The notes below the pieces were generated by a model. That model did no database searches. It saw nothing but the letters and a program-made list of their open reading frames with translations, and had not been told where the DNA came from. A DNA stretch of 64,000 bases, taken from positions 79,763,034-79,827,033 of the forward strand of contig OY720345.1 in the NCBI GenBank assembly GCA_963082975.1. The letters are read 5' to 3'. Origin of the DNA: Labia minor (Eukaryota; Arthropoda; Insecta; Dermaptera; Spongiphoridae). Position numbers and translations under genes: made by a program. Positions within the stretch are counted from its first letter, which is position 1. Each line of letters opens with the position of its first letter. Positions 8,509 to 58,635 of this stretch are shown piece by piece.

Positions 8509-9423
8509 TAGTGATTCTCAACCTGGGCGATCGACATCTTAAAGGGGGCGATTATTTGACTATAAGCTTTTGGAGGGCGAAATCATTTTCAACTCTAAAA
8601 TAAGTTGACCTGTGGCCAGGTCCGAACCGACCGACGGTTTGAAATAAATTAATTTCCAGCTACAGAAACAATTTCAAATAATTTTCATATATCTATTAAT
8701 GTAATAAAAAACAGATATGGATACTTAAATAATAAATATAAACATTTTAAATTTTATTTTATTTATAATATATATGCAAGACCAGGCTGTGACGTCATGA
8801 ATGGTTGGATGACGTCATATAATTTTAAATCAAGAAAAAACTAATAAATATGATTTTTCTCGAGGATAAAACCAATACAAAGTGCATGATTCGTGGTGAT
8901 ATATAAAAAAATCTCCTTTGGTGTGAAAATAACCCTTTCCTTCCTATCGTCGAACGCTAATACTACCACTTCCGGTTTCCGGAATTGCACCAAAAGTTGA
9001 TCAATTCATCCCACTGATGCATTAAGTAAATATACCAAATTTCATCAAAATCGGTTGAGCCGTTCAGGCTGTACACATCTATACGGACGGACAGACGGAC
9101 GGACAGACGGACAGACATCATGCTAAAAATACTTTTTTCTGTTTAGAAAATGCATGATTCGTGGAGATATGTAAAAATCTCCACATGTGAAATTTGGTGT
9201 GAAAACAATACCTCCCTTACTATCGTCGGTCGGTAAAAAAGGTAAGATGATTTTGCGATCAGGTTCCGAAACTCGATTTTTCAAAATATCAAGTATCACC
9301 AAGGGTATCTACCTTATATTAGGGATATTCATGCAATTTTTATCTGTTAAAATTTATAGGGGGCGAATTATGAAGCTGGCCTTACGAAGTGGGCGTTTGG
9401 TCAAAAAAGGTTGAGAAACACTA
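8509..9423. mobile_element. Non-autonomous hAT element interrupted by a family-B element
   Basis: The ends are inverted repeats: TAGTGATTCTCAACCT at 8509 and, as reverse complement of the right end, TAGTGTTTCTCAACCT. They are flanked by a near-perfect 8-bp duplication (CGTTTGCC 8501-8508, CCTTTGCC 9424-9431), the length typical of hAT transposition. The interior is non-coding, and most of it is a family-B insertion (8600-9234). Confidence 0.75.
8600..9234 (-). mobile_element. Family-B Helentron-like short element, copy 1
   Basis: Reverse-orientation copy of a 620-635 bp repeat. Read on the minus strand it starts TACCGACCGACG and ends with the inverted copy CGTCGGTCGG followed by a GACCTG-GCCA-CAGGTC hairpin and AACTTAT. 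It contains a (GGACGGACA)-type microsatellite near 9077-9115. Other copies are at 27467 and 38140, and a 3' half is at 34243. It lies inside a hAT element. Confidence 0.75.
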
Positions 9424-26900: not shown

Positions 26901-29900
26901 TTTACTAATTGAATATAATTTAATAATTATGAAAATATACATTAAAACTTTAAAGAATTAATAATAAATTATTATCTGTATTTTGATTTCGGTTATATTA
27001 TATTTTGTTTTAAAATTTAAAAAAAAAAAAAATTTATATAATCAATTAATATTATAATCTTAAATAGATTACATACTATAAATTATTGTAAAAAGATATT
27101 ACATTAATATATATATTTATTTATATATAATGTTTTAGAAATACAAAAAATCTGGTGTGTCTCCACTCGACTATCTCGCAAATTTGAATTGGATTAATTA
27201 ACATATTTTATATGTAAATTAAATTTCATTAATTAAATTAAAAATTAAAATTAATAAATCGAATTGAGAGATAAAACTAACATTTCCTTTAATGTAAATA
27301 TTTGAAACGAGAGAAAAACATACGAATTGTTCTTAGCAAGAAGGAAATTTTCAAAAAAATAAATAAATAAATAATCATTTTCATTTCCATTAAGATACTA
27401 TTTATAAAGATCACAAGAAATCCATTAATCATTGATTAACCAAGAATAATTATTCAAACGCATTTTTACCGACCGACGATAGTAAGGGAGGTATTGTTTT
27501 CACACCAAATTTCACATGTGGAGATTTTTACATATCTCCACGAATCATGCATTTTCTAAACAGAAAAAAGTATTTTTAGCATGATGTCTGTCCGTCCGTC
27601 CGTATAGATGTGTACAGCCTGAACGGCTCAACCGATTTTGATGAAATTTGGTATATTTACTTAATGCATCAGTGGGATGAATGGATCAACTTTTGGTGCA
27701 ATTCCGGAAACCGGAAGTGGTAGTATTAGCGATCGACGATAGGAAGGAAAGGGTTATTTTCACACCAAAGGAGATTTTTTTATATATCACCACGAATCAT
27801 GCACTTTGTATTGGTTTTATCCTCGAGAAAAATCATATTTATTAGTTTTTTCTTAATTTAAAATTATATGACGTCATCCAGCCATTCATGACGTCACAGC
27901 CTGGTCTTGCATATATATTATAAATAAAATAAAATTAAAAATGTTTATATTTATTATTTATGTATCCATATCTGTTTTTTATTACATTAATAGATATATT
28001 AAAATTATTTGAAATTGTTTCTGTAGCTGGAAATTAATTTATTTCAAACCGTCGGTCGGTTCGGACCTGGCCACAGGTCAACTTATTAATCATCTAAGTT
28101 TATCAAACAACTGATTTACGTACATTTGAGTTAATTTATAAATAAAAAAAAATCTGGAGTGTCTCCACTCGGCTATCTCGCAAAATGGAATTGGATAAAT
28201 TACTACATATATATTATATTTAAATTAAATTATAAATTAAAATTAATAAATAATATTTATTAAACCAGCGCGTGTTTGGCTTAATGTTGATAGCCCATCG
28301 TCACCACGTGCTGAGGCGTGATTGCCAGTTAACGTGTTAAAAAATTAATTCCGGTACTTTCAGGCTGAATTTCTATTTATAGCAGTTTTATACAATTTTT
28401 AATCATGAGAAAAACTATCAAACATATATCTTTATTTTTACGGTCAGTTTAGAGGAAAAAAAATTAAAACGTGGTACGTAATGACTCTCTTCCGAAAGAG
28501 CTATATTTCTGAAAAGTTAATAGAAAACTACGAATTTTGAATAATTTTGAATTTTTGCGTAATCTTGTCTACATACACACATAAACATACAACCTTGGTG
28601 AAAATGACTCAGGAACCTTCAAAACGTATAAAAACATCAAAATCTCGACATAGAAAATTTTCGTGATCGCAATATTATCTCTGATGAGATAGTAAAAACG
28701 AATGAATTACTTCTCCCATACACAGTTGAAGAAAATTGAAATGTCTTTATGAGAAGTGTTTCTTATAAATAATTAATAATTCAATTATAAATAATATTTA
28801 GTAATCTTGAAATATAATAAAAAATAAGTCCATACAAAGCGTCAAATGATTATTTTCAAAATAATTAACTCTTTACTCTTTCTTGAATTTGGGTGATTGA
28901 TATCACTTTTATTTCAAGGAATCTTTATAGTATTAAAATATAAAATATAATGTAGTATGCAGCTCTTTTCGCCTTAAATATTCTACGATACAAAGATGGA
29001 TGATACGTAATGTTTATTTATCACTTTTTATAAGGTCATTTTAGAACGAGAATAATTTTTAAAATAACACAAAATATAGGTATTAAATAATAAATTAAGA
29101 AAAACCTATTTTTTATATTATTGATTATATTTTCTTATCGATTTATTTAGACAAATCGATTTCGTTTATCTCATTCAATATAATGTTAATGTATAATTTT
29201 TATTTTTATTTTAATTTTTATAATTTTATTCGAATTGTACAGTTTGCCGTGAGTGGATTATCAAAGAAGATGGTGCCCTTGCATATCGACTTCAATCGCA
29301 AGAGAGTGAGTATTTATATAATTGTTCTTTTGATTAAAATTGAGGAGACCAGGAAAGATTAGGTTGTAAGGAACATTGATACATAATTAACCCTAACAAC
29401 TGAATATAGGATTTTTAAAAGAAAGAAAAATAAAATTAATTTATTTTATGGCATTTTAGTTGAAAATCATTATTCAACAAATAAACAGCGTAATGCTCAA
29501 GTAAGAGAGGATACACCAAAGGCACGAGATGAACAATTAAGGGAGCTACGACAAGCGATGGATGAACAAACCAGACAAGAAGCTCTCGATGAAGCTCTTG
29601 CTAGAGAATTGGCTGCTCGAATTGAATGCGAAGAAGAACAACAAAAAAAAGTGCTTGAGCTTCGTGATCAAGCAGTTGCCCAGCAAATTCAGGTAATGCT
29701 CATATTTATGGTAATTAATTGATTGATGAATTTCTATTTGTTGTTTTTTCACTGTTTTCTTGAGAAAAACCCTTCTAATACTTCTTTTAATATACTTCTT
29801 CTCATTAATAATAATTAATATTAATATAAATTGAGTCAAGTATTATTAGTTATCAGGGCTGAGAATATTTACTAACCAATAACTAAAAATTGTCTATAAA

Positions 29901-34242: not shown

Positions 34243-35287
34243 ATAAATAAAATAAAAAAAATATTTATGTCATATCCATATCTGTTTTTTATTGCATTAA
34301 TAAATACATTAAATTATTTGAAATTGTTTCTGTAGCTAGAGATTTATTTATATCAAACCGTCGCACAGTGGTATGAAACACCAAAAAAGCTGGCCAAAAA
34401 TCGAAAATTGAAAAAATTTTTTTTTGCATGTCGTTTATGGTATTTTGTTGAAGACATATTTATGTACGAAAAGCTGAAAATGTAGAGCACTACCATGACT
34501 CTACGAGTTTTCCGAACATCTCAAAGTCAGCTGTTTTTACTTTCTCACGAGATTTCCCAAAACGTCTGAAATTCGAGCTCATTCAAAATTGGTGTTTCGT
34601 TTCATAGAAAAGTTTCATTTGCAACTTGCGACATGGAAACTGTTGCTGGAGGTACGTACATGGACTTTTTTATTTTGTTTGCTAGAAATGCATGTATTAT
34701 ATTGATATTGGCTGATTTAAACCGCTTGTGTCAGAAAATGTAACCTGACGAAAAACTTTTCAAAAAACATTCCGCATTTTTTACATTGGTGACCATTGGT
34801 GACAATCTCATTTGAATCATAAAGATAAAGGTCTATAGATAAAGAATCATGAAGAAAAAATTGCTCCTTTTTGCCCCATTTGTTCCTATGAATTTTTTTC
34901 CGAGCGCGCGAACGTCAACAGACTAGGGCCTATGGGACCCACAGGTACCTGCAGGTTAGCGCGATTAATATCTCGTTAAGGTGCACCTGTCACTTTTCAA
35001 AAGAAGGAAAGATATTTGAAGTAAAATCAATGTAACAGCTCACCTTTTCTCGAATTCCGTCGCCTATTTTAGATGCATAATATAGTTGTTCTCCTTTTTC
35101 TCTTCATGACGTCATTTTTTGAAAAATCAACACATCATTTGAAATTTATCATTTTTTTTCGTACAATCTAACTTCAATTTCGAAATTTTCGGCTCAAAAA
35201 ATCCCACAACATTTTTGGCCAGCTATTTGGGCGTTTCAGACCACTGTGCGTCGGTCGGTTCTGCGCCTGCCCACAGGTCAACTTATT
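34243..35287 (+). mobile_element. Family-B 3' half, interrupted by a Transib-like element
   Basis: 34243-34363 matches the 3' part of family B (CATATCTGTTTTTTATTGCA, GAAATTGTTTCTGTAGCTAG) and 35249-35287 supplies its end (CGTCGGTCGGTT, then CCACAGGTCAACTTAT). The 5' half is missing. The 885-bp insertion between is described separately. Confidence 0.8.
34364..35248. mobile_element. Transib-like non-autonomous DNA transposon
   Basis: The 885-bp insertion has inverted ends CACAGTGGTATGAAACACC (left) and CACAGTGGTCTGAAACGCC (reverse complement of right), which align for about 38 bp. It is flanked by a perfect 5-bp duplication CGTCG (34359-34363, 35249-35253). The empty site is known from other family-B copies (AAACCGTCGGTCGGTT). 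Transib elements make 5-bp GC-rich duplications and have ends related to the V(D)J recombination heptamer; here the first seven bases are exactly CACAGTG. An A-rich CCAAAAATC/G lies 23 bp from the heptamer at both ends, similar to the RSS nonamer. The interior has no long frame, so a transposase would be needed in trans. The hAT alternative is disfavoured because no 8-bp duplication fits. Confidence 0.8.
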
Positions 35288-37997: not shown

Positions 37998-38925
37998 CAG
38001 GGATGTCCAACTCGCGGCCCGCGGGCCGCATTGCGGCCCACTCAAAGTTTTGATGCGGCCCACTATCGACTCATTTTGGAGTTAATTTTTAACGAATTCA
38101 CAGTCCGGCAATCGACCTATAACTTCGAGGCTATAAAAAATAAGTTGACCTGTGGCCAGGTCCGAACCGACCGACGGTTTGAAATAAATTAATTTCCAGC
38201 TACAGAAACAATTTCAAATAATTTTAATATATCTATTAATGTAATAAAAAACAGATATGGATACATAAATAATAAATATAAACATTTTTAATTTTATTTT
38301 ATTTATAATATATATGCAAGACCAGGCAGTGACGTCATGCATGGCTGGATGACGTCATATAATTTTAAATCAAGAAAAAACTAATAAATATGATTTTTCT
38401 CGAGGATAAAACCAATACAAAGTGCATGATTCGTGGTGATATATAAAAAAATCTCCTTTGGTGTGAAAATAACCCTTTCCTTCCTATCGTCGATCGCTAA
38501 TACTACCACTTCCGGTTTCCGGAATTGCACCAAAAGTTGATCCATTCATCCCACTGATGCATTAAGTAAATATACCAAATTTCATCAAAATCGGTTGAGC
38601 CGTTCAGGCTGTACACATCTATACGGACGGACGGACAGACATCATGCTAAAAATACTTTTTTCTGTTTAGAAAATGCATGATTCGTGGAGATATGTAAAA
38701 ATCTCCACATGTGAAATTTGGTGTGAAAACAATACCTCCCTTACTATCGTCGGTCGGTAAAAAGCTGCAACATTCAAAAACAAAAAACCACCTATATCCC
38801 CAAAAATCTCCATAAGTTTTGAGACATTCACTAGCTAGGCATAACATATTCTGGTAATTTTGCGGCCCAGTTAAATATTTAAGTTTGCGAAGTGGCCCAT
38901 TAAATTAAAAGGTTGGACTTCCCTG
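37998..38925. mobile_element. hAT element with perfect 8-bp duplication, carrying a family-B insertion
   Basis: Ends CAGGGATGTCCAAC and (reverse complement) CAGGGAAGTCCAAC, flanked by GTCTATGA (37990-37997 and 38926-38933). Subterminal GCGGCCC repeats are present near both ends. No transposase frame. A family-B element occupies 38140-38759. Confidence 0.9.
38140..38759 (-). mobile_element. Family-B Helentron-like element, copy 4 (reverse)
   Basis: 620 bp, nearly identical to the copies at 8600 and 27467; read on the minus strand it starts TACCGACCGACG and ends CCACAGGTCAACTTAT. The microsatellite is shorter (GGACGGACGGACAGAC). Confidence 0.85.
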
Positions 38926-39759: not shown

Positions 39760-40782
39760 ATGGATCTTTATTCAGAAGAAGACAGAAAATATCCAATATA
39801 TATAGGTAATTTTTATGTTCATCAAAATTAATTTTAATTTTCACTAGTATTATACTTTTAATTTATTTCTAATGATATTCATAATAAAAATAAAATTGTT
39901 TTAGGTCCTTTATATCCTTGTGAATATTGCAACACAAATTATATAAATGAGGAATTTTTATCTAAGCATTTAAAAAGATGTATTTTCAAACAAATAATTT
40001 CAATTTTAAAAAATAAATTAAAACTCAAAAATGATACAGTCGAATATTCAAATGAAAACAGTCATGACGAAAAACTTGAAAATAATGATTCAAAAAATAA
40101 AGAAGACAGCCGTTTTGAATGTAATTATTGTAAAAAGAAATTTAATTTTAAATCAAGATTAAATACACATATATTAATTCACACAGGTGAAAAACCTTTT
40201 CAATGTAATTATTGTAAAAAGAAATTTAATAGGAAATCACATTTAAATAGACATTTATTAATAATTCATAATGATGAAGAACCTTTTGAATGTAATTATT
40301 GTAAAAAAAAATTTAATTTTAAATCAAGATTAAATACACATATATTAATTCACACAGGTGAAAAGGCTTTTGAATGTAATTATTGTAAAAATAAATTTAG
40401 TAGGAAATCAGATTTAAATAGACATTTATTAATTCATAGAGGAGAAAAGCCTTTTGAATGTAATTATTGTAAAAAGAAATTTAATCATAAATTTAGTTTA
40501 GATAGGCATTTATTAATTCATAACGTTGAAAAGCCTTTTGAATGTAATCATTGTAAAAAGAAATTTAAGGATAAATCATATTTAATTAAACATTTATTAA
40601 TTCATACAGGTGAAAAGCCTTTTGAATGTTATTATTGTAAAAAGAAATTTAATAGGAAATCAGATTTAAATAGACATCTATTAATTCATACAGGAGTAAA
40701 CTCTTTTGATTGTAATAATTGTAAAAAGAAATTTAATGTAAAATCTAATTTAAATACACATTTATTAATACATAATGTTTGA
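39760..40782 (+). CDS. C2H2 zinc-finger protein, tandem paralog 1 (8 fingers)
   Basis: Exon 1 39760-39805 encodes MDLYSEEDRKYPIYI; a 99-bp intron follows; exon 2 is 39905-40782; total 307 aa. An N-terminal C2HC-type motif (CEYCNTNYINEEFLSKHLKR then C) is followed by an acidic Asn/Ser/Lys linker and eight C2H2 fingers on the scaffold FECNYCKKKF-x5-L-x2-H with TGEKPF-type linkers. Finger 2 has an extra residue between the two His (HLLIIH). No stop or frameshift. Expected to be a nuclear DNA-binding regulator; the target is unknown. Helix residues at -1, 3, 6 vary among fingers (for example R/D/R, H/S/R, D/Y/K), the remainder being nearly constant. The start is shared by all three paralogs. I do not recognise a named orthologue. 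Confidence 0.8.
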
Positions 40783-41300
40783 AAGGCTTAATAATGAAGA
40801 CTAAAGGTTTTCTTTCATTATTTCTTATATACTTAATAGTTTTATATTTAAATTTCTGATTTATTTAACTTAATATTATATTAACTAATTTATTTGGTCA
40901 ATTAATAACTACATTATTACCAATTTTCTATTTACTTTTAAGAATTTTATCCTTTTATTAATCATGTTCGTTTATTTGTTATTTTTTTATACAAACTAAA
41001 ATATGTCAAAAGATTGTTTCTTTTTACCAATCTATAATAGTAAATAAAAAATAAATTTTATAAAATCCTTTTTAATTTTTTCACGAGAATTTAATTATTC
41101 TATTATATTGATTGTATATAATATATTTTATATTGTAACTCCCGCCCCTTTGCTCAATTTTGTGTCAGGGGATGGCTCTACAGAGGGGAACGGGAAATAT
41201 TTTTTTCGATTATAAATGAAATAAACTAAAAAAAATTCCTAATTTCACAATATGAACTTAATAATTTATATATGTATATTAAATGTCTTGGAAAATGTTT
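40783..41300. other. Conserved 3' flank of zinc-finger paralog 1
   Basis: Nearly identical to the 3' flanks of paralogs 2 (49207-49702) and 3 (58636-59112), including the GCCCCTTTGCTCAATTT patch near 41145. It marks the duplicated unit. Confidence 0.8.
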
Positions 41301-43182: not shown

Positions 43183-46100
43183 TTATATGGAACTAGGCCC
43201 TTTTAGGGCATAGGACTCTCCCAGTCTTTTCCATTTTGACCTATCTCTTGCAGTCTTCATCCAGTCTATTCCGACTTCTCTAATGAACTCTCTAGACCAT
43301 CTATTTGGCGGTCTTCCTCGATTTCTGGTTTTATCCAATGGACACCATTCTGTAGTGATTTTTGTCCACCTATCGTTGTTCATCCTCGCCACATGTCCTG
43401 CCCATCTCCATTTCAACTTCCTTACAGCTATGTTGATATTTTCCACCTTTGTTTTCTTGTAAATATCGGTTATTCGTTGCTTATCCATCCTTCTCACACC
43501 AAGTATACTTCTTATCATACTTCTCTGAGTGGTTTCTAATTTTGTCGATATTTTTTCTATCATCGTCCATGTTTGTGAGCCATAAGTAAGTGTTGGTAAG
43601 ATACACTTTTTAAAAACTTTTATTCTAGACGATATATCTAGTTCCTTGTTTTTTAAGATAAATTTCAAGCCCCAAAACTTACCCCAAGATATTCCTATTC
43701 TTCTTGTTAATTCTTCATATGTTCTTGATTTGTTAAAATTTAGTTTTTGACCCAGGTAAATTATTTCTTTTTTACATATGATGGGCGGTTCATTTTTTCC
43801 ATAAGAAATATCTCTTTCGTCGCAATTTGTAATTATCACTGTTTTTTTGTTGTTGATTTTGAGGCCTATTTTTTTGCTTTCTTGATTTAATTCTCTAATC
43901 ATACTTTTTATTTCCTTTTTTGATGTCCCTATAACGACCACATCGTCAGCGAATCTTAGATTACTTAAATATCGTCCGTTCACTCTTAGGCCCCTCTTTT
44001 CCCATTTTAGTTGACGGAACACTTCTTCTAGAGCACAGTTGAATAACAATGGCGACAATGGATCCCCTTGTCTAACGCCTCTCTCTACAGTAAAGAAAGG
44101 TCCAGGATCATCAATAATAACTCTTGCCTGCGAATCCTCGTATATTTTTTTGATTAGGTTGGTATATCCAGCGTCCACACCTTGAGATATCATAGCGTGA
44201 AAGACACTCTCTTGATAAACCGAGTCGAAGGCTTTCTCGTAGTCTATGAACGCTAGGTAAATTTCTATTTTATATTCAATTGATTTTTCAATTATTTGAT
44301 TTAATGTGTGCAGATGGTCGCATGTTGAATAGTTTTTCCTGAATCCGGCTTGTTATACTGACTGCGAATTTGTAAGGATATTTTCCAATCGATTATTAAT
44401 TAGTTTCATAAATATTTTTCCGATATTCGAAGTAATTGTTATCGGTCTGTAATTTTTAATATTCTTTGGATCACCTTTTTTAAATAAGATCATTATATTG
44501 GAAGTTTTCCATTGTTTTGGTATAATTTGACTTTTAATTATATTATTAAAAATAGATGTAAGTGGCTTTTTAATTAGTTTGATTGAGAGTCTCAATATTT
44601 CATTTTTTACACCGTCTATTCCTGGGGTTTTTCCTGATTTTAAATTTTTAATAGCGAATTCAATTTCACTTTCAATAAATAGAGGTATATTTATATTTTC
44701 ATTTGGATGGATTAAGTTGTTGTTATGTTCCCTTAATATATTAGGATTACTGTATAGTTTTTTATAAAATTTGGTTGCTATAATTTTTATTTGGGTTCTA
44801 TTAAATTTTTTATTTTTATTTTCATCATTGAGACTTGGAATTAATGTAATTCCCGTGGATAATTCTTTTTTTATTTTTTTAATAGAATTATATGGTTCTA
44901 TATAATTTTTTATTATGTTATCATTATAATCTTTTAAATCTTTTTTTATGTGATATTTAACCAATTTACAAAGAATATTATGTTCGATTTTACCATCTAT
45001 TGTGTTTCTTTTTATTCTTAATTCATTTCTTTGTTTTATTAGTTTTTTTGTATTTTCAGATAACTTGTGATTTTTTTGATATAATTCTTCGGATTTATCT
45101 TGCAACATTTTTATATTTTTTTCAAAAATATCGTATTGATCCTGTGTTTGTTGAATATTGGAGAAATTGATATTTTTAAGTTCATTTTCTACTTTTAAAA
45201 TAATTTCTGTTGTTACATTTTGAATATTTATTAATTTCATGATTTGTTTATTGCATTTTGGATTTGGTCTTCCTAAAATTACACTCGAAGATAATTCTAC
45301 CTTTATTAAACGATGGTCGGTGAAAAATGCAAATTTGTTATCAATTTCAAATTTACGTATCAAATTCATATGAGGAGATAGAATGTAGTCAATTTCGTTT
45401 TTATAAATTCCATTTGGAGCCATCCAAGTCCACTTTCTACCTGCTCTCTTCTTATAAAATGTATTTACAATTTTTAAATTGTTTGTTTCACAGAAGTGTA
45501 CCAATCTAACTCCATTTCCATTTCTTTTTCCATAGCCATAAGGTCCGATGATCATCTTTTCTTCTTCTATTCTCTTTCCTACTTGGCTGTTCAAGTCTCC
45601 AATTAGAATTAATTTATTTTTAATATTATTACGGTATTCGTCTACAACATTGGCAAGCAAAATATAGAAGTCCTCGGTTGTTTGTTCATCAGCCTCCGCT
45701 GTTGGTGCATATACTTGTACGATTGTTATAGTACAATTGTTTTTATAGGCAAGTTTCAAAAGTGCTATTCTATCCGAAAAACCCCTAAACTCCACAATAT
45801 ATTTTTTCATGCTATTTTTTACCATGAAACCCACTCCCCGTCTTCCTCTCATCTGACCAATGTAATAAAAAATATAGCCAGATTTTCTTTGTAATATTTT
45901 TTCACCTATTCTCTTTACTTCTGACAGCCCCAAAATTTCAATTTGAACACCCTCAAGAGCATTTTCAAGTTCGATTAATTTGTCCTCGTCTTTCAGGCTA
46001 CGAACGTTTAATGTTGCTAGTATTATTTTTTCATATTTATTTTTATTATTTTTTTCCTTTGAATTATTTTTATTTAAGTTTCTATTTATATCTTTCTTTT

Positions 46101-46296
46101 TAAATGAAATCTTTTGTTTTAATTTATTATTTTCAGTATTATCATTAATTCTATTAAGGTTAGTATGGTCGAAAATATTATGAATTGGGAGGTTTTGGTC
46201 GGTTATGCCTGAGTTGACCAGACTTACTGGGCAGGAGTCGAGATTTTGAGTATTTTTTTCTTTCAGATGTTCTAAAGACCTAGCTCCTATGATCAT
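43183..46296 (-). pseudogene. RTE-like ORF2: AP endonuclease plus reverse transcriptase, one in-frame stop
   Basis: The frame from ATG 46294-46296 is open to 44353-44355, where a TAA interrupts it, and continues in the same frame to 43183; no frameshift is needed. The N-terminal endonuclease domain shows ILATLNVRSL, LGLSEVKRIGE, IGDLNSQVG and FFTDHRLI (catalytic Asp-His near the end). The reverse transcriptase shows GIDGVKNEIL, NYRPITITSNIGKIF, AFIDYEKAFDSV, GVRQGDPLSPLLFN and FADDVVVIG. The tail RRMDKQRITDIYKKTK and KWRWAGHVARM is typical of RTE/BovB-like elements. The single nonsense codon lies just before the QAGFRKNYST block. Annotation pipelines often label such frames craniofacial development protein 2-like. 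Confidence 0.9.
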
Positions 46297-48018: not shown

Positions 48019-49206
48019 ATGGATCTTTATTCAGAAGAAGACAGAAAATATCCAATATATATAGGTAATTTTTATGTTCATCAAAATTAATTTTAATTTT
48101 CACTAGTATTATACTTTTAATTTATTTCTAATGATATTCATAATAAAAATAAAATTGTTTTAGGTCCTTTATATCCTTGTGAATATTGCAACACCAATTA
48201 TATAAATGAGGAATTTTTATCTAAGCATTTAAAAAGATGTATTTTCAAACAAATATTTTCAATTTTAAAAAATAAATTAAAACTCAAAAATGCTACACTC
48301 GAATATTCCAAGGAAAACAGTCATGACGAAAAACTTGAAAATAATGATTCAAAAAATACAGAAGAAACCCGTTTTGAATGTAATTATTGTAAAAAGGAAT
48401 TTAATTTTAAATCTCAATTAAATAGACATATCGTAATGCACACAGGTGAAAAGCTTTTTGAATGTAATTATTGTAAAAAGAAATTTAATAGGAAATCAGA
48501 TTTAAATAGACATTTATTAATTCATACAGGTGAAAATCGTTTTAAATGTATTTATTGTAAAGAGAAATTTAATCAGAAATCTAATTTAGACAAACATTTA
48601 TTAATTCATACAGGCGAAAACCCTTTTGAATGTAATTATTGTAAAAATAAATTTAGTAGGAAATCAGATTTAAATAAACATTTATTAATTCATAGAGGAG
48701 AAAAGCTTTTTGAATGTAATCAATGTAAAAAGAAATTTAAATTTAAATCATATTTAAAAAATCATTTATTAATTCATACAGATGAAAAAACTTTTGAATG
48801 TAATTATTGTAAAAAGAAATTTAAGAATAAATCATATTTAAATACACATTTTTTAATCCACACAAGTGAAAAGACTTTTGAATGTAATTATTGTAAAAAG
48901 AGATTTTTTAGGATAATAGATATAAATAGACATTTATTAATTCATACCGTTGAAAAACCTTTTGAATGTAATCATTGTAAAAAAAGATTTAATCATAAAC
49001 ATGGTTTACATAGACATTTAATAATTCATACAGGTGAAAAGCCTTTTCAGTGTAATTATTGTAAAAAGAAATTTAATGATAAATCATATTTAAGTAAACA
49101 TGTATTAATTCATACAGGAGAAAAGCCTTTTGAATGTAATTATTGTAAAAAGAAATTTAATTTTAAATCACAATTAAATACACATTTATTAATACATAAT
49201 GTTTGA
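48019..49206 (+). CDS. C2H2 zinc-finger protein, tandem paralog 2 (10 fingers)
   Basis: Exon 1 48019-48064, 99-bp intron, exon 2 48164-49206, 362 aa, intact. It has the same N-terminal C2HC motif and acidic linker as paralog 1, followed by ten C2H2 fingers with HTGEKPFECNYCKKKF-type linkers. Helix contact triplets (-1/3/6) in order: F/Q/R, R/D/R, Q/N/K, R/D/K, F/Y/N, N/Y/T, R/D/R, H/G/R, D/Y/K, F/Q/T. Fingers 1-6 and the last three correspond to those of paralog 3. Finger 7 has an unusual helix (RIIDINRH), with Ile replacing the conserved Leu. Upstream and downstream sequences are near-identical to the other copies. Probable nuclear DNA-binding protein of unknown target. Confidence 0.85.
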
Positions 49207-51009: not shown

Positions 51010-53104
51010 AGGTTTAAGTGATGCAAACATAAGAGAGAAAATTTTGCAAATGGAATCAGCTGACACGGCAGATGTAAATAAAGTTTTAGAATATGCATTA
51101 AATATTGAGGCAGCAAGAAAGGAGAATGAAGAAGAATATAAGAAAAATAATATTTTTGAGAATTCTAACGTGGTGAAGGATTCTGGTGCTGAGATTAACA
51201 AAATAGGCCACACAAAGAAACCTGTTAAAACACAAGAAAAGTCACAAATATTTAATAATAAACCACAATATAATCGTAATTTTTCTTATCAAAGTAAAAA
51301 TAAAACATATATGTACAAAGGCTTATGTCTTTGCTGCGGGAATAATACACATGCTACAGCATCATGTAGATCAAAACATAAGCTTCGATGTTACAAATGT
51401 GACAAACGAGGACATCTTGCTAAGGTTTGCCTCAGCAACACAAATTATAACAAACAAAATCTTAGAAAAATCAAAACTACTGAGTATGATAAAGAAGACA
51501 TAGAGTTAAGTGAAGACGAATATTTTATCAATAATATTATTGATTCTAATAAAAAAATATTAGTTGATTTGTTTATTAACGACAAATGTCAGCCCTTTGA
51601 GCTAGACACTGGTTCTCCAGTATCAATATTATCTGAAAATGATTTAAATAAATTGAATTTTGAAACAATCAAAATACATCCTTGTTATACAAAGTTTAAA
51701 GCTTATAATGGCACATTAATTAAACCACTCGGCATAGCTAAAGTAAACGTTTCTTATATAGGTAAAACAAATCTTGGAGAGTTATACATAGTTGCAGAAA
51801 ATTTTTCTCCTATTATGGGACGTCAATGGATTAAAAATTTAAATATTTTAAATTTTGATATTCAAAATCACATAATTCATGCTATTCAGCCTGACTTAAA
51901 TAAAAATATTGATTATATTTTACAAACATACAAATCAGTTTTTGATGAAACTTCTGGAGTCATTCCGAATTTAGAAGTATCACTTCAGCTACGCGAGGAT
52001 GCAAAGCTTATTTTCTTGAATCCTCGAACTGTTCCATTTGCGTTGTTACCAAAAGTTAATGATGAATTGGATGCCCTTGAAAAACAAGGTATTATTGAGA
52101 AAATTGAATATTGTCCATGGGGAACACCTCTGGTAATTGTACCAAAGGCAGATAATAAAGGAGTGAGATTATGTGCTGACTATAAAGTCACAGTAAATAA
52201 ACAGTTGGTGGATGCACACCACCCCATCCCAAAAATTCAAGAATTATTTACAAAATTAAGAACAGGAAGCTATTATTGTGTCCTTGATATTTCGAGAGCA
52301 TATTTGCATATAAAATTGGATGAACCAAGCGCTCAGATAGCAGCTATAAGTACTCATCGGGGAACTTATAAGGCAAAAAGATTATTTTTTGGTCTGAAAA
52401 CTGCACCAAGCTTATTCCATGGAGTATTAGACCCTATATTAAGCGGACTTGAAGGATGCTTCGCATATTTTGATGACATTGTGATACAAGGACGTACAGT
52501 ACAAGAATGTAAACAAAATTTAATTAAATGTTTAGATCAATTAAAGAAATTTAACATACATTTAAATAAAAAGAAATGTAAATTTTTTGTAAAAAAAATT
52601 AAATACCTTGGATATATTATATCTGAAAAAGGACTAGAAAAAGATCCTGAAAAAGTATCTGCTATTATGGCTACACCAGCACCGAAAAATGCTGATGAGG
52701 TACGTTCATTTATGGGTCTTGCATTATTTTATTGTAAATTTATTCCAAGAGCATCTGAGTTACTACATCCTCTTTCTAACTTATTAAAAAAAGACGTCAA
52801 ATTTAACTGGACCAAAGACTGTGCAAGAGCATTTAAAAAAATTAAAGATGAATTAGCCAGTGATAGAGTATTGATGCCATACTATCCGGACTTACCGCTA
52901 GTTCTGGAATGCGATGCAAGTCCATTTGGGCTAGCTGCTATTTTGTCGAATGAGGAGGTAAATGGCGTTTTAAAGCCAATTCATTTTATATCCAGGACAT
53001 TGACAAATGCAGAGAAAAATTATAGCCATCTTTGGGCGACTAAAAAGTTGTTCCAATACCTATACGGAAAAAAATTTACTCTCATAACCGCCATAAACCA
53101 TTAG
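50984..53104 (+). pseudogene. Gypsy-type gag C-terminus fused to pol (protease, RT, RNase H)
   Basis: In one frame: two CCHC knuckles (CLCCGNNTHATASC and CYKCDKRGHLAKVC), the protease active site LDTGSPVS, RT with LDISRAYLHI and the catalytic YFDD, and RNase H with ECDASPFG. The frame breaks at about 53089 by a single-base loss in the conserved RNase H segment after LIT. The protein is described only; the element is inactive. Confidence 0.88.
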
Positions 53105-54163
53105 AATCAATCTTTAATCCTGCAAAGAATTTGCCTGCTATCACTGCACTACGTTTGACACGCTACGCTCTATTTTTAAGGCAATTTGAATATCAAATTA
53201 AATATCGCTCGGCGGCCCAACATACACATGTTGATTATCTATCAAGATCACCGGTCTCAAGTGTAAAAGAAGGATTTGTTGATGAATCTTATGAATTTGA
53301 ACAAAATACAATAAATAAATTATGTATATCACACATATCAGAAGCTATCACTGCTGTGACCGTAAAAAAAGAAACTGACAAAGATGAAGAATTGTCTAAT
53401 TTTAGAAAAGAGCTATATGAGAGGAGGGCGAGTCGTGATACCACGTACGTTACAACAAGCTATACTTAATGAGTTGCATAACACACATATTGGAGTAGTA
53501 AAAATGAAAGCCATTGCGCGTTCTGTTTGTTATTGGAAAGGAATAGACAGGGATATTGAATCCTTAGTTAAATCGTGCAACAATTGCGCGGAAGTGCACA
53601 AACAAGCTCCAAAAGCACCTCTTCATCACTGGGAGGATCCGAAAGAGCCCTGGCAAAGGATCCATGCTGACTATGCAGGTCCATTGGAGGGAAAATATTT
53701 TTTAATAGTTGTAGATGCGAAGACTAAGTGGCTGGAAATTAACTATCAAGCATCTCCTCCAACATCAGAGAGTACCATAAAAGCGTTTAAGAATATATTT
53801 GTAAATCAAGGTCTTCCATACATTATAGTAACTGACAATGCAACTTACTTCAAATCTCATGAATTTACAAGTTTTTGTGCAGCGCAAGGAATTACACAAT
53901 TATTTTCAGCTCCAAACCACCCAGCAACGAATGGTTTGGCTGAAAGATTAGTTCAAACGGTAAAACAAAAATTAAAAGCAATGTTAAATTTTCAAAGCGG
54001 CTCCATAAAAGAAAAATTACAAGAGATATTATTCTACTATAGGACTACACCGCTAGTTGACGGTAAAACACCAGCCGAACATCATATTGGAAGGCAGTTG
54101 AAAACAAAATTACACCTTTTAAAACCAGTACCAAAAGGCCTATATCTTAGACCAAGAGCATAA
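53105..54163 (+). pseudogene. Gypsy-type pol: RNase H end and integrase
   Basis: 53131-53410 continues RNase H and connector (AITALRLTRYALFL, HTHVDYLSR). A further frame break with probable loss of connector sequence occurs near 53405-53420. The frame ending at 54163 carries the integrase: zinc-binding ELHNTHIG with CNNC, and a DD35E core (HADYAGPLE, VTDNATYF, LAERLVQ). Past 54163 the C-terminal domain is scattered over frames to about 54590. Confidence 0.85.
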
Positions 54164-57195: not shown

Positions 57196-58635
57196 ATGGA
57201 TCTTTATTCAGAAGAAGACAGAAAATATCCAATATATATAGGTAATTTTTATGTTCATCAAAATTAATTTTAATTTTCACTAGTATTATACTTTTAATTT
57301 ATTTCTAATGATATTCATAATAAAAATAAAATTGTTTTAGGTCCTTTATATCCTTGTGAATATTGCAACACCAATTATATAAATGAGGAATTTTTATCTA
57401 AGCATTTAAAAAGATGTATATTCAAACAAATAATTTCAATTTTAAAAAATAAATTAAAACTCAAAAATGATACAGTCGAATATTCAAATGAAAACAGTCA
57501 TGACGAAAAACTAGAGGATACTGATTCAAAAAATAAAGAAGACAGCCGTTTTGAATGTATTTATTGTAAAAAGAAATTTAATTTTAAATCACAATTAAAT
57601 AGACATATCTTAATTCACACAGGTGAAAAGCCTTTTGAATGTAATTATTGTAAAAAGAAATTTAATAGGAAATCAGATTTAAATAGACATTTATTAATTC
57701 ATACAGGAGAAAATCGTTTTAAATGTATTTATTGTAAAGAGAAATTTAATCAGAAATCTAATTTAGACAAACATTTATTAATTCATACAGGCGAAAACCC
57801 TTTTGAATGTAATTATTGTAAAAATAAATTTAGTAGGAAATCAGATTTAAATAAACATTTATTAATTCATAGAGGAGAAAAGCCTTTTGAATGTAATCAA
57901 TGTAAAAAGAAATTTAAATTTAAATCACATTTAAATAATCATTTATTAATTCATACAGATGAAAAAACTTTTGAATGTAATTATTGTAAAAAGAAATTTA
58001 AGGATAAATCATATTTAAATACACATTTTTTCATTCACACAGGTGAAAAGCCTTTTGAATGTAATTATTGTAAAAAGAAATTTTATAGGAAATCATATTT
58101 AAATTCACATTTATTAATTCATACCGTTGAAAAACCTTTTGAATGTAATCATTGTAAAAGGAAATTTAAGGATAAATCATATTTAATTAAACATTTATTG
58201 ATGCATACTGATGAAAAGCCTTTTGAATGTAATTATTGTAAAAAGAAATTCATTAGGAAATCAGATTTAAATGGACATTTATTAATTCATACAGGGGAAA
58301 ATCCTTTTGAATGTAATTATTGTAAAAAGAAATTTAATCATAAATTTGGCTTAAATAGACATTTATTAATTCATACTGGTCAAAAGCCTTTTAAATGTAA
58401 TCATTGTAAAAAAAGATTTAATCATAAATATGGTTTAGATAGACATTTATTAATTCATACAGGTGAAAAGCCTTTTCAGTGTAATTATTGTAAAAAGAAA
58501 TTTAAGGATAAATCATATTTAAGTAAACATATATTAATTCATACAGGAGAAAAGCCTTTTGAATGTAATTATTGTAAAAAGAAATTTAATTTTAAATCAC
58601 AATTAAATACACATTTATTAACACATAATGTTTGA
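57196..58635 (+). CDS. C2H2 zinc-finger protein, tandem paralog 3 (13 fingers)
   Basis: Exon 1 57196-57241, 99-bp intron, exon 2 57341-58635, 446 aa, no stops or frameshifts. Same N-terminal C2HC motif and acidic linker as its paralogs, then thirteen C2H2 fingers. Contact triplets (-1/3/6): F/Q/R, R/D/R, Q/N/K, R/D/K, F/H/N, D/Y/T, R/Y/S, D/Y/K, R/D/G, H/G/R, H/G/R, D/Y/K, F/Q/T. Compared with paralog 2, the first six and last fingers align while the middle has gained fingers, consistent with unequal exchange inside the array. Only the last 145 codons follow an internal Met (58198), so a single-frame reading would miss most of the protein. Expected nuclear DNA-binding factor; target unknown. 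Confidence 0.87.

Follow-up and report, generated by a model that had tools for sequence, protein, structure and literature searches.

Transib ends and target-specific transposons

The antibody-gene recombinase RAG1 arose from the Transib lineage of transposons. The V(D)J recombination signal sequences (RSSs) have CACAGTG as their canonical heptamer and ACAAAAACC as their nonamer, and the Transib heptamer follows a consensus close to CACWRTG; a consensus for Transib ends was reportedly published by Kapitonov and Jurka in 2005. Passages of PMC8355894 describe Transib ends with symmetric spacers of 20–22 bp and some asymmetric 12/23 arrangements, and passages of PMC6941560 agree; in both sources, some Transib heptamers and nonamers are identical to those of canonical RSSs. 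The duplication generated by a moth Transib is given as CGNCG in part of PMC4735498, target choice in the RAG1 family is described in a passage of PMC11844651 as a GC-rich 5-bp site, and the Drosophila elements hopper and transib2 have, according to passages of PMC3276498, the palindromic target motif CCANTGG.

Strict target specificity is almost confined to non-LTR retrotransposons in the account given by passages of PMC3706591, with Dada as the DNA-transposon case and Pokey as a partial one, and in plants, nested LTR retrotransposons show a preference for regions of other elements, as stated in an excerpt of PMC6911290. A search of open-access titles and abstract openings returned no report of near-exclusive targeting by a Transib.

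A Transib insertion within repeat B

The window (the whole stretch of Labia minor DNA that was analysed, 64 kb long, to whose letters all positions refer) contains an insertion of 885 bp at 34364–35248, with CACAGTGG...CCACTGTG at its tips. The original prediction, which described such an insertion with inverted ends of about 38 bp, CACAGTG tips, and a flanking CGTCG duplication, is borne out in each of these respects by the letters of the window. The inverted ends are identical at 34 of 38 bp, or at 89% over 45 nt when the duplication and two outer bases are included, and CACAGTG/CACTGTG occurs within the 64 kb only at the two tips of the element. Its features are as follows.

34359..34363, + strand: left target-site duplication, CGTCG, present as a single copy in empty repeats
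34364..35248, + strand: element of 885 bp, near-certainly a non-autonomous Transib, an internally deleted form of a family of about 1027 bp
34364..34401, + strand: left terminal inverted repeat, 38 bp
34364..34370, + strand: left heptamer, CACAGTG
34394..34402, + strand: A-rich block CCAAAAATC, similar to the nonamer, 23 bp from the left heptamer (from the letters; putative function)
35206..35210, no strand: junction of the 142-bp deletion that separates the window copy from the 1027-bp form (from alignment to a 1027-bp copy)
35210..35218, − strand: A-rich block CCAAAAATG, 23 bp from the right heptamer (from the letters; putative function)
35211..35248, − strand: right terminal inverted repeat, 38 bp
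35242..35248, − strand: right heptamer, CACAGTG
35249..35253, + strand: right target-site duplication, CGTCG

The insertion is not a chance arrangement, since 39 further copies, roughly 1 kb long and 99% identical, were scored in the same genome. Its inverted ends begin with CAC and both carry CACAGTG, a heptamer near CACWRTG. The A-rich block that had been placed 23 bp inside each heptamer is there on both sides, CCAAAAATC on the left sharing seven of nine letters with the nonamer ACAAAAACC and CCAAAAATG on the right sharing six; within this one young family, nearly all of the copies displayed, and the autonomous elements as well, have the block at this 23-bp distance on both sides, with a single-base difference at one end in L002 and L010. 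The spacer is equal at both ends, and nothing points to a 12/23 rule. Of the earlier description of these ends as unusually RSS-like, the likeness stands and 'unusually' was overstated, as published Transib ends are alike in the passages of PMC8355894 and PMC6941560. Because that literature gives similar spacers and some RSS-identical heptamers and nonamers, the ends are typical of Transibs; heptamer, spacer, and A-rich block are all ordinary for the group.

The host of the insertion, which had been named as a family-B repeat with uninterrupted copies elsewhere, is indeed such a repeat: three other copies in the window, near 8597, 27955, and 38135, carry one CGTCG without an insert, and the joined flanks of the 885-bp insert align through the site to these three empty copies. 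The features of B in the window are the following.

8599..9239, − strand: repeat B, empty-target copy, with its 7-bp palindrome at 8631–8637
27463..28087, + strand: repeat B, empty-target copy
27468..27478, + strand: B 5′ subterminal repeat ACCGACCGACG, with the same CGACG core and no insertion in a genome-wide exact-pattern scan
28049..28055, + strand: empty target palindrome CCGTCGG in the B 3′ subterminal repeat
34262..34363, + strand: repeat B, truncated copy, part before the insert (103 columns, 89%)
35249..35287, + strand: repeat B, part following the insert, which includes the 3′ subterminal repeat (CGTCGGTCGGT) and a 3′ hairpin that has diverged
38139..38763, − strand: repeat B, empty-target copy, with its 7-bp palindrome at 38171–38177

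B starts with TTTTTACCGACCGACG, ends with CGTCGGTCGGTTCGGACCTGGCCACAGGTCAACTTATT, is about 620–640 bp long, and contains a GTCC-type microsatellite. Like a HINE, it possesses subterminal inverted repeats (ACCGACCGACG / CGTCGGTCGGT), a 3′ palindrome (GACCTGGCCACAGGTC), and a T-rich 5′ edge (TTTTTACC); the hairpin contains CACAGGTC, and the exact 5′ subterminal repeat was present in 20 of 30 sampled B copies. On these sequence features, B appears to be Helentron-like and resembles a non-autonomous HINE. Passages of PMC4067079 attribute to HINE/DINE-1 elements the same 5′ T run, subterminal inverted repeats, 3′ palindrome, and microsatellite; the repeats of B are, however, 11 bp long, with the 3′ one about 27 bp from the end, whereas the corresponding figures for mite HINEs in those passages are 12–15 bp and 38–60 bp. 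The exact empty 16-bp B 3′ site occurs 18,558 times in the genome, and by this number, B is a very successful Helentron-like family.

The window holds several other features. The remains of a LINE lie on the minus strand at 43183–46296, in which a reverse transcriptase is recognised and an endonuclease matches weakly, just under the cut-off, and Gypsy-type pol frames with reverse transcriptase, RNase H, and integrase zinc finger and core lie at 51044–54163. Three tandem-repeat blocks (40108–40784, 48356–49198, and 57544–58621), with a unit of about 84–86 bp as judged from self-match spacing, sit in larger window-internal duplications of approximately 89%–94% identity. A frame at 2902–3723 matches DUF4639 and is possibly a host exon.

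The element family and its autonomous members

The genome around the window comprises 604 Mb in 71 contigs, with a GC content of 26%–27%. Forty copies out of 134 candidates were scored (loci L001–L040, the window's own copy included), and over query bases 1–848, the remaining 39 show 99% identity, with two of the alignments beginning at bases 5 and 10. The measured short copies are 1012–1029 bp long and thus exceed the window copy by about 142 bp, for which reason the latter is taken to be an internally deleted variant; its bases 1–843 and 847–885 align to bases 1–843 and 989–1027 of one 1027-bp copy. A perfect 5-bp duplication flanks 38 of the 40 copies (CGTCG or CGACG in 36, CGGCG in two), the exceptions being L020 and L033, each with a damaged tip. 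The CGGCG pair, L034 and L035, lies on small contigs (60 and 25), and since the flanks of the two are the same, they may represent one insertion, with perhaps one locus assembled twice. By eye, the insert at L034/L035 lies inside an apparent Tc1/mariner transposase frame.

Searching the genome with the Pfam RAG1 profile (PF12940) gave two weak matches, with E values of 0.07 and 0.09 and below the family cut-off, and both loci carry the ends of the short element. The full-length elements are 3646 and 3647 bp long, 99.4% identical, and flanked by 5-bp CGWCG duplications. In both, a frame of 612 codons lies open from stop to stop; the first usable in-frame start is TTG, and a start in an upstream exon is therefore possible. 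The translated frame reaches 25.9 bits with the Pfam RAG1 profile, for which the cut-off is 25, and matches vertebrate RAG1 weakly (E 0.0002 to 0.003). Against 6pqn, which we take to be Hztransib of Helicoverpa zea, it gives an E value of 8.8e-107 over query residues 101–574, and five further PDB entries match. Of these structures, 6PQX, 6PQY, and 6PR5, which fall in the same structure-match row as 6pqn, are termed Transib in a passage of PMC11844651.

By hand count with a chain offset of 17, D206, D314, and E528 of the L041 frame align with D126, D225, and E436 of Hztransib, the catalytic triad as numbered in part of PMC6941560, and the catalytic D, D, and E are invariant in all ten aligned sequences (the query and nine of its 496 relatives). 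These relatives, at E ≤0.001, emerged from a protein search in which 7993 candidates were scored; among the 120 of them listed, the best stands at 81%, and those from ants, wasps, a bee, beetles, and a cricket stand at 45%–60%, which makes an insect the probable host. A search of the genome with the transposase gave 29 matches, of which two are intact, one is broken by a stop, and the rest are partial remnants. Derivatives of 1.24 kb and 1.43 kb found in this search keep transposase tails.

The genome search that had been proposed for longer elements with a RAG1-core-like DDE transposase has thus yielded two 3.65-kb elements that share the ends of the short one and encode a Transib transposase. 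Duplications at many sites, the other comparison proposed, are 5 bp long and CGWCG or otherwise CGNCG-like with few exceptions; neither the 8-bp duplications nor the hAT transposase that would have spoken for a hAT element was seen. The two longest frames of a full-length element include RAG1 and no kelch or RAG2 family, so within these frames no RAG2-like gene stands beside the RAG1-like gene as in RAGL elements. The window element is almost certainly a non-autonomous Transib, as originally proposed.

By sequence comparison, the form of about 1.03 kb is an internally deleted relative of the full-length Transib. One 1027-bp copy (L003) aligns to the full element over its initial 670 bases and its final 293 at 97.6%–100%; its bases 536–599 (64 bp), a stretch also found in the window copy, align to neither full-length element, and because of these unaligned bases, deletion alone does not derive the short form from either of them. 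The open frames and the 99% identity point to a family that may be active. The 38-bp degenerate pattern of the ends had no exact match in viral contigs, and blastn against phage records gave no match to the element.

A single target site

The most unusual feature of the family is its single target, where the original prediction gave as host only a 'family-B repeat'. Of the 40 copies, 36 lie intact at one B position, ttcaaac/CGTCG/gtcggtt, divided 16 to 20 between the two orientations; L033, with its damaged tip, lies at the same position, and both autonomous copies are at the B site in opposite orientations. The exact-end pattern CACAGTGGTMTGAAACGCC was scanned genome-wide to remove the bias of similarity searching, a scan that covers only ends matching the pattern, so that ends with other bases, such as the left end of the window element, fall outside it. 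It returned 228 ends (eight without and 220 with C at position −6), and 206 of them, or 90% (95% interval 86%–94%), lie in the 12-bp B context WWCMRACCGWCG. Among the 100 B-context ends listed, all read AACCGACCGACG or TTCAAACCGTCG save one, TACCGACCGACG, the partner end of which reads TTCAAACCGTCG.

A further 37 elements, each judged on one flank from the first 100 listed ends with C at −6, included 36 at B; three elements (L103, L106, and L124) were assigned to B by eye, and their ends also appear in the B-context list. Altogether, 75 of the 84 individual elements examined are at the B site, a share that is probably understated, as the set without C at −6 is exhaustive and the rest was sampled. 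The nine elements elsewhere are L020, L034, L035, L045–L048, L051, and L129; L047 lies at TTTTTAC/CGACC, which resembles, in a different register, the 5′ edge of a repeat similar to B. L051, on contig 51, is a 1.43-kb derivative with a CGATG duplication, and targets outside CGNCG are therefore occasionally used.

The background frequency of CGWCG was estimated from 124 kb, comprising the window and 20 evenly spaced 3-kb samples chosen by the analyst. These contain 36 such sites, of which four are the empty B site and 23 fall in the window, including three in or beside the insert. The estimate is of approximately 175,000 CGWCG sites per genome, with about 11% at B (upper 95% limit 26%), and even at 26%, the probability of finding 75 of 84 elements at B by chance is <1e-33 when sites are treated as independent. 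A stronger control than this comparison is internal to the repeat: insertion at the B 5′ subterminal repeat or at the internal CGACGATAG gave no match to an exact pattern anywhere in the genome.

A palindrome as the probable target signal

The 3′ and 5′ sites of B have the same core and one identical flank, and differ in the base after the core (CCGACGG versus CCGACGA). In about 285 kb examined, a set made up mostly of sequence fetched for containing B or the element and covering part of the loci, all 41 occurrences of CCGNCGG are B sites, 39 assigned by script and two by eye, the latter both reading ACCGACGGTTTGAA and being variant B sites; in the window and spaced samples, all four occurrences lie in B. 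On these counts, CCGWCGG seems almost private to B in a genome of 26%–27% GC. Targets outside B are looser (CGGCG/CGCCG, CGACC, and CGATG), and the palindrome is hence preferred rather than required. Its recognition is likely to be the cause of the targeting, an argument drawn from one abundant site at which reading the palindrome is inseparable from reading more of B.

Probable independent insertion and its alternatives

Near-exclusive targeting of one B position by independent insertion is assigned a probability of roughly 0.88. Rolling-circle elements can copy internal sequence, and a Transib that entered B once or twice could have been carried along as a composite by the rolling-circle mobility of B; most filled B copies differ in what adjoins them on the 3′ side, which would be the case with separate B insertions. 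Such hitch-hiking sits badly with the divergence of insert and host. Across 32 copies (L001, L007, L012, and L024 being left out), divergence from the majority is 0.34% for the element and 2.4%, or about seven times as much, for 106 flanking bases of B, which is the more diverged in 26 of the 32 copies and not so in the remaining six. The filled copies form no clade, and some of the B copies that carry an insert are truncated or altered (L007, L016, L024, L039, and the window copy). Orientation is unstructured, with a same-oriented nearest neighbour in 16 of 32 cases and the observed value reached in 858 of 2000 orientation shuffles for the element and 767 of 2000 for the flank. Moreover, the 1.03-, 1.24-, 1.43-, and 3.65-kb forms each occur at the B site in both orientations; four length classes in two orientations require a minimum of eight insertions at that base, unless inversion in place has occurred. 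Given the greater divergence of the B flanks and the lack of clustering among filled copies, hitch-hiking is most improbable. Gene conversion, in which B copies would serve as homology arms and an insert would pass from a filled copy to the corresponding position of an empty one, would also yield one position and perfect duplications. Moreover, in a comparison of 33 filled with 30 empty copies (the latter all from one end of contig C1), the filled flanks are slightly closer to one another (mean distance 4.7%) than to the empty ones (5.3%; empty to empty, 5.6%). It is nevertheless very unlikely: the correlation between element and flank distances is not significant (r 0.21, with 221 of 2000 permutations as high), the nearest neighbour of a filled flank is mostly an empty copy (26 of 33, ties included), and two orientations per length class need separate founders, barring inversion in place.

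The remaining accounts concern why one site should be occupied. Selection acts against insertions in genes, and an element that inserted at all CGNCG sites and persisted only in harmless repeats might come to be seen mainly in B, which is non-coding and has about 0.6% of its sites filled; yet the 5′ subterminal repeat and the internal CGACG of B, presumably equally harmless, contain no insertions, and most CGWCG sites in the sampled DNA are other than the B 3′ site, which leaves survivorship highly improbable. Tethering, in which a host or Helentron protein on the 3′ end of B would lead the transposase there, agrees with the use of the 3′ subterminal repeat and not the 5′ one, but insertions here occupy one base position, whereas the tethered elements in passages of PMC3706591 insert at a distance. 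The near-equal orientations (16 and 20) also speak against tethering, as does the palindrome explanation, which requires no partner, and it is considered unlikely.

Proposed course of insertion

The explanation as a whole, that of a trans-mobilised Transib with a palindromic target and independent insertions into B, is regarded as highly probable. A RAG1-like DDE transposase, for which an open frame persists in two full-length relatives, is proposed to mobilise the short Transib in trans. By analogy with studied Transibs, it would pair two ends, cut at the CACAGTG tips, and join the ends to the target with a 5-bp stagger. The preferred target would be a palindrome centred on the duplicated bases, CCGWCGG or perhaps ACCGWCGGT, provided almost exclusively by the subterminal repeat at the 3′ end of B, with its thousands of exact empty sites, and the Transib would accordingly land near-exclusively at one B position, mostly through independent insertions into pre-existing B copies. 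The insert would part the B 3′ subterminal repeat from the 3′ hairpin, probably rendering that B copy immobile, and excision of the element would leave a footprint in which up to 12 bases lie between AAACCGTCG and CGTCGGTCGG.

One transposon would here be using another as its landing pad. The family offers around a hundred natural insertions, 18,558 exact empty sites as controls, and, within the same repeat, a decoy that is half identical; with these, the bases that decide the target can be proposed from sequence; such proposals are testable with purified enzyme, a relative of which has a solved structure. The chances are even that target specificity has evolved here in a RAG1/Transib-lineage transposase, which would read a 7–9-bp palindrome, ACCGWCGGT, with such strictness that a single position in the 3′ end of a Helentron forms its near-exclusive niche, and that it is the first in that lineage to have done so.

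Comparison with known systems

RAGL/ProtoRAG elements, as portrayed in passages of PMC7204232, share CAC tips and 5-bp duplications with the family here; the protostome RAGL tip consensus given there, CACTWMCAAAC, is unmatched, however, and no RAG2-like family is present in the two longest frames. Dada and Pokey, in the passages of PMC3706591, are likewise DNA transposons specific for a multicopy sequence. Dada belongs to a different superfamily, targets snRNA and tRNA genes, and generates duplications of 6–7 bp, and Pokey targets the 28S rRNA gene, in part, whereas the target here is another transposon.

The family is at one with the Transib superfamily (Hztransib) in its RAG1-core-like DDE transposase, CAC-initial inverted ends, and GC-rich 5-bp duplication, and differs in that about nine in ten of its insertions lie at one position of one repeat. 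The closest likeness in target form is to hopper and transib2: CCANTGG in the passages of PMC3276498 and the CCGWCGG proposed here are both 7-bp palindromes consisting of the 5-bp duplication and one base on each side. The hopper motif was derived from hundreds of separate sites, and those passages mention no concentration in one repeat, whereas CCGWCGG is nearly confined to B.
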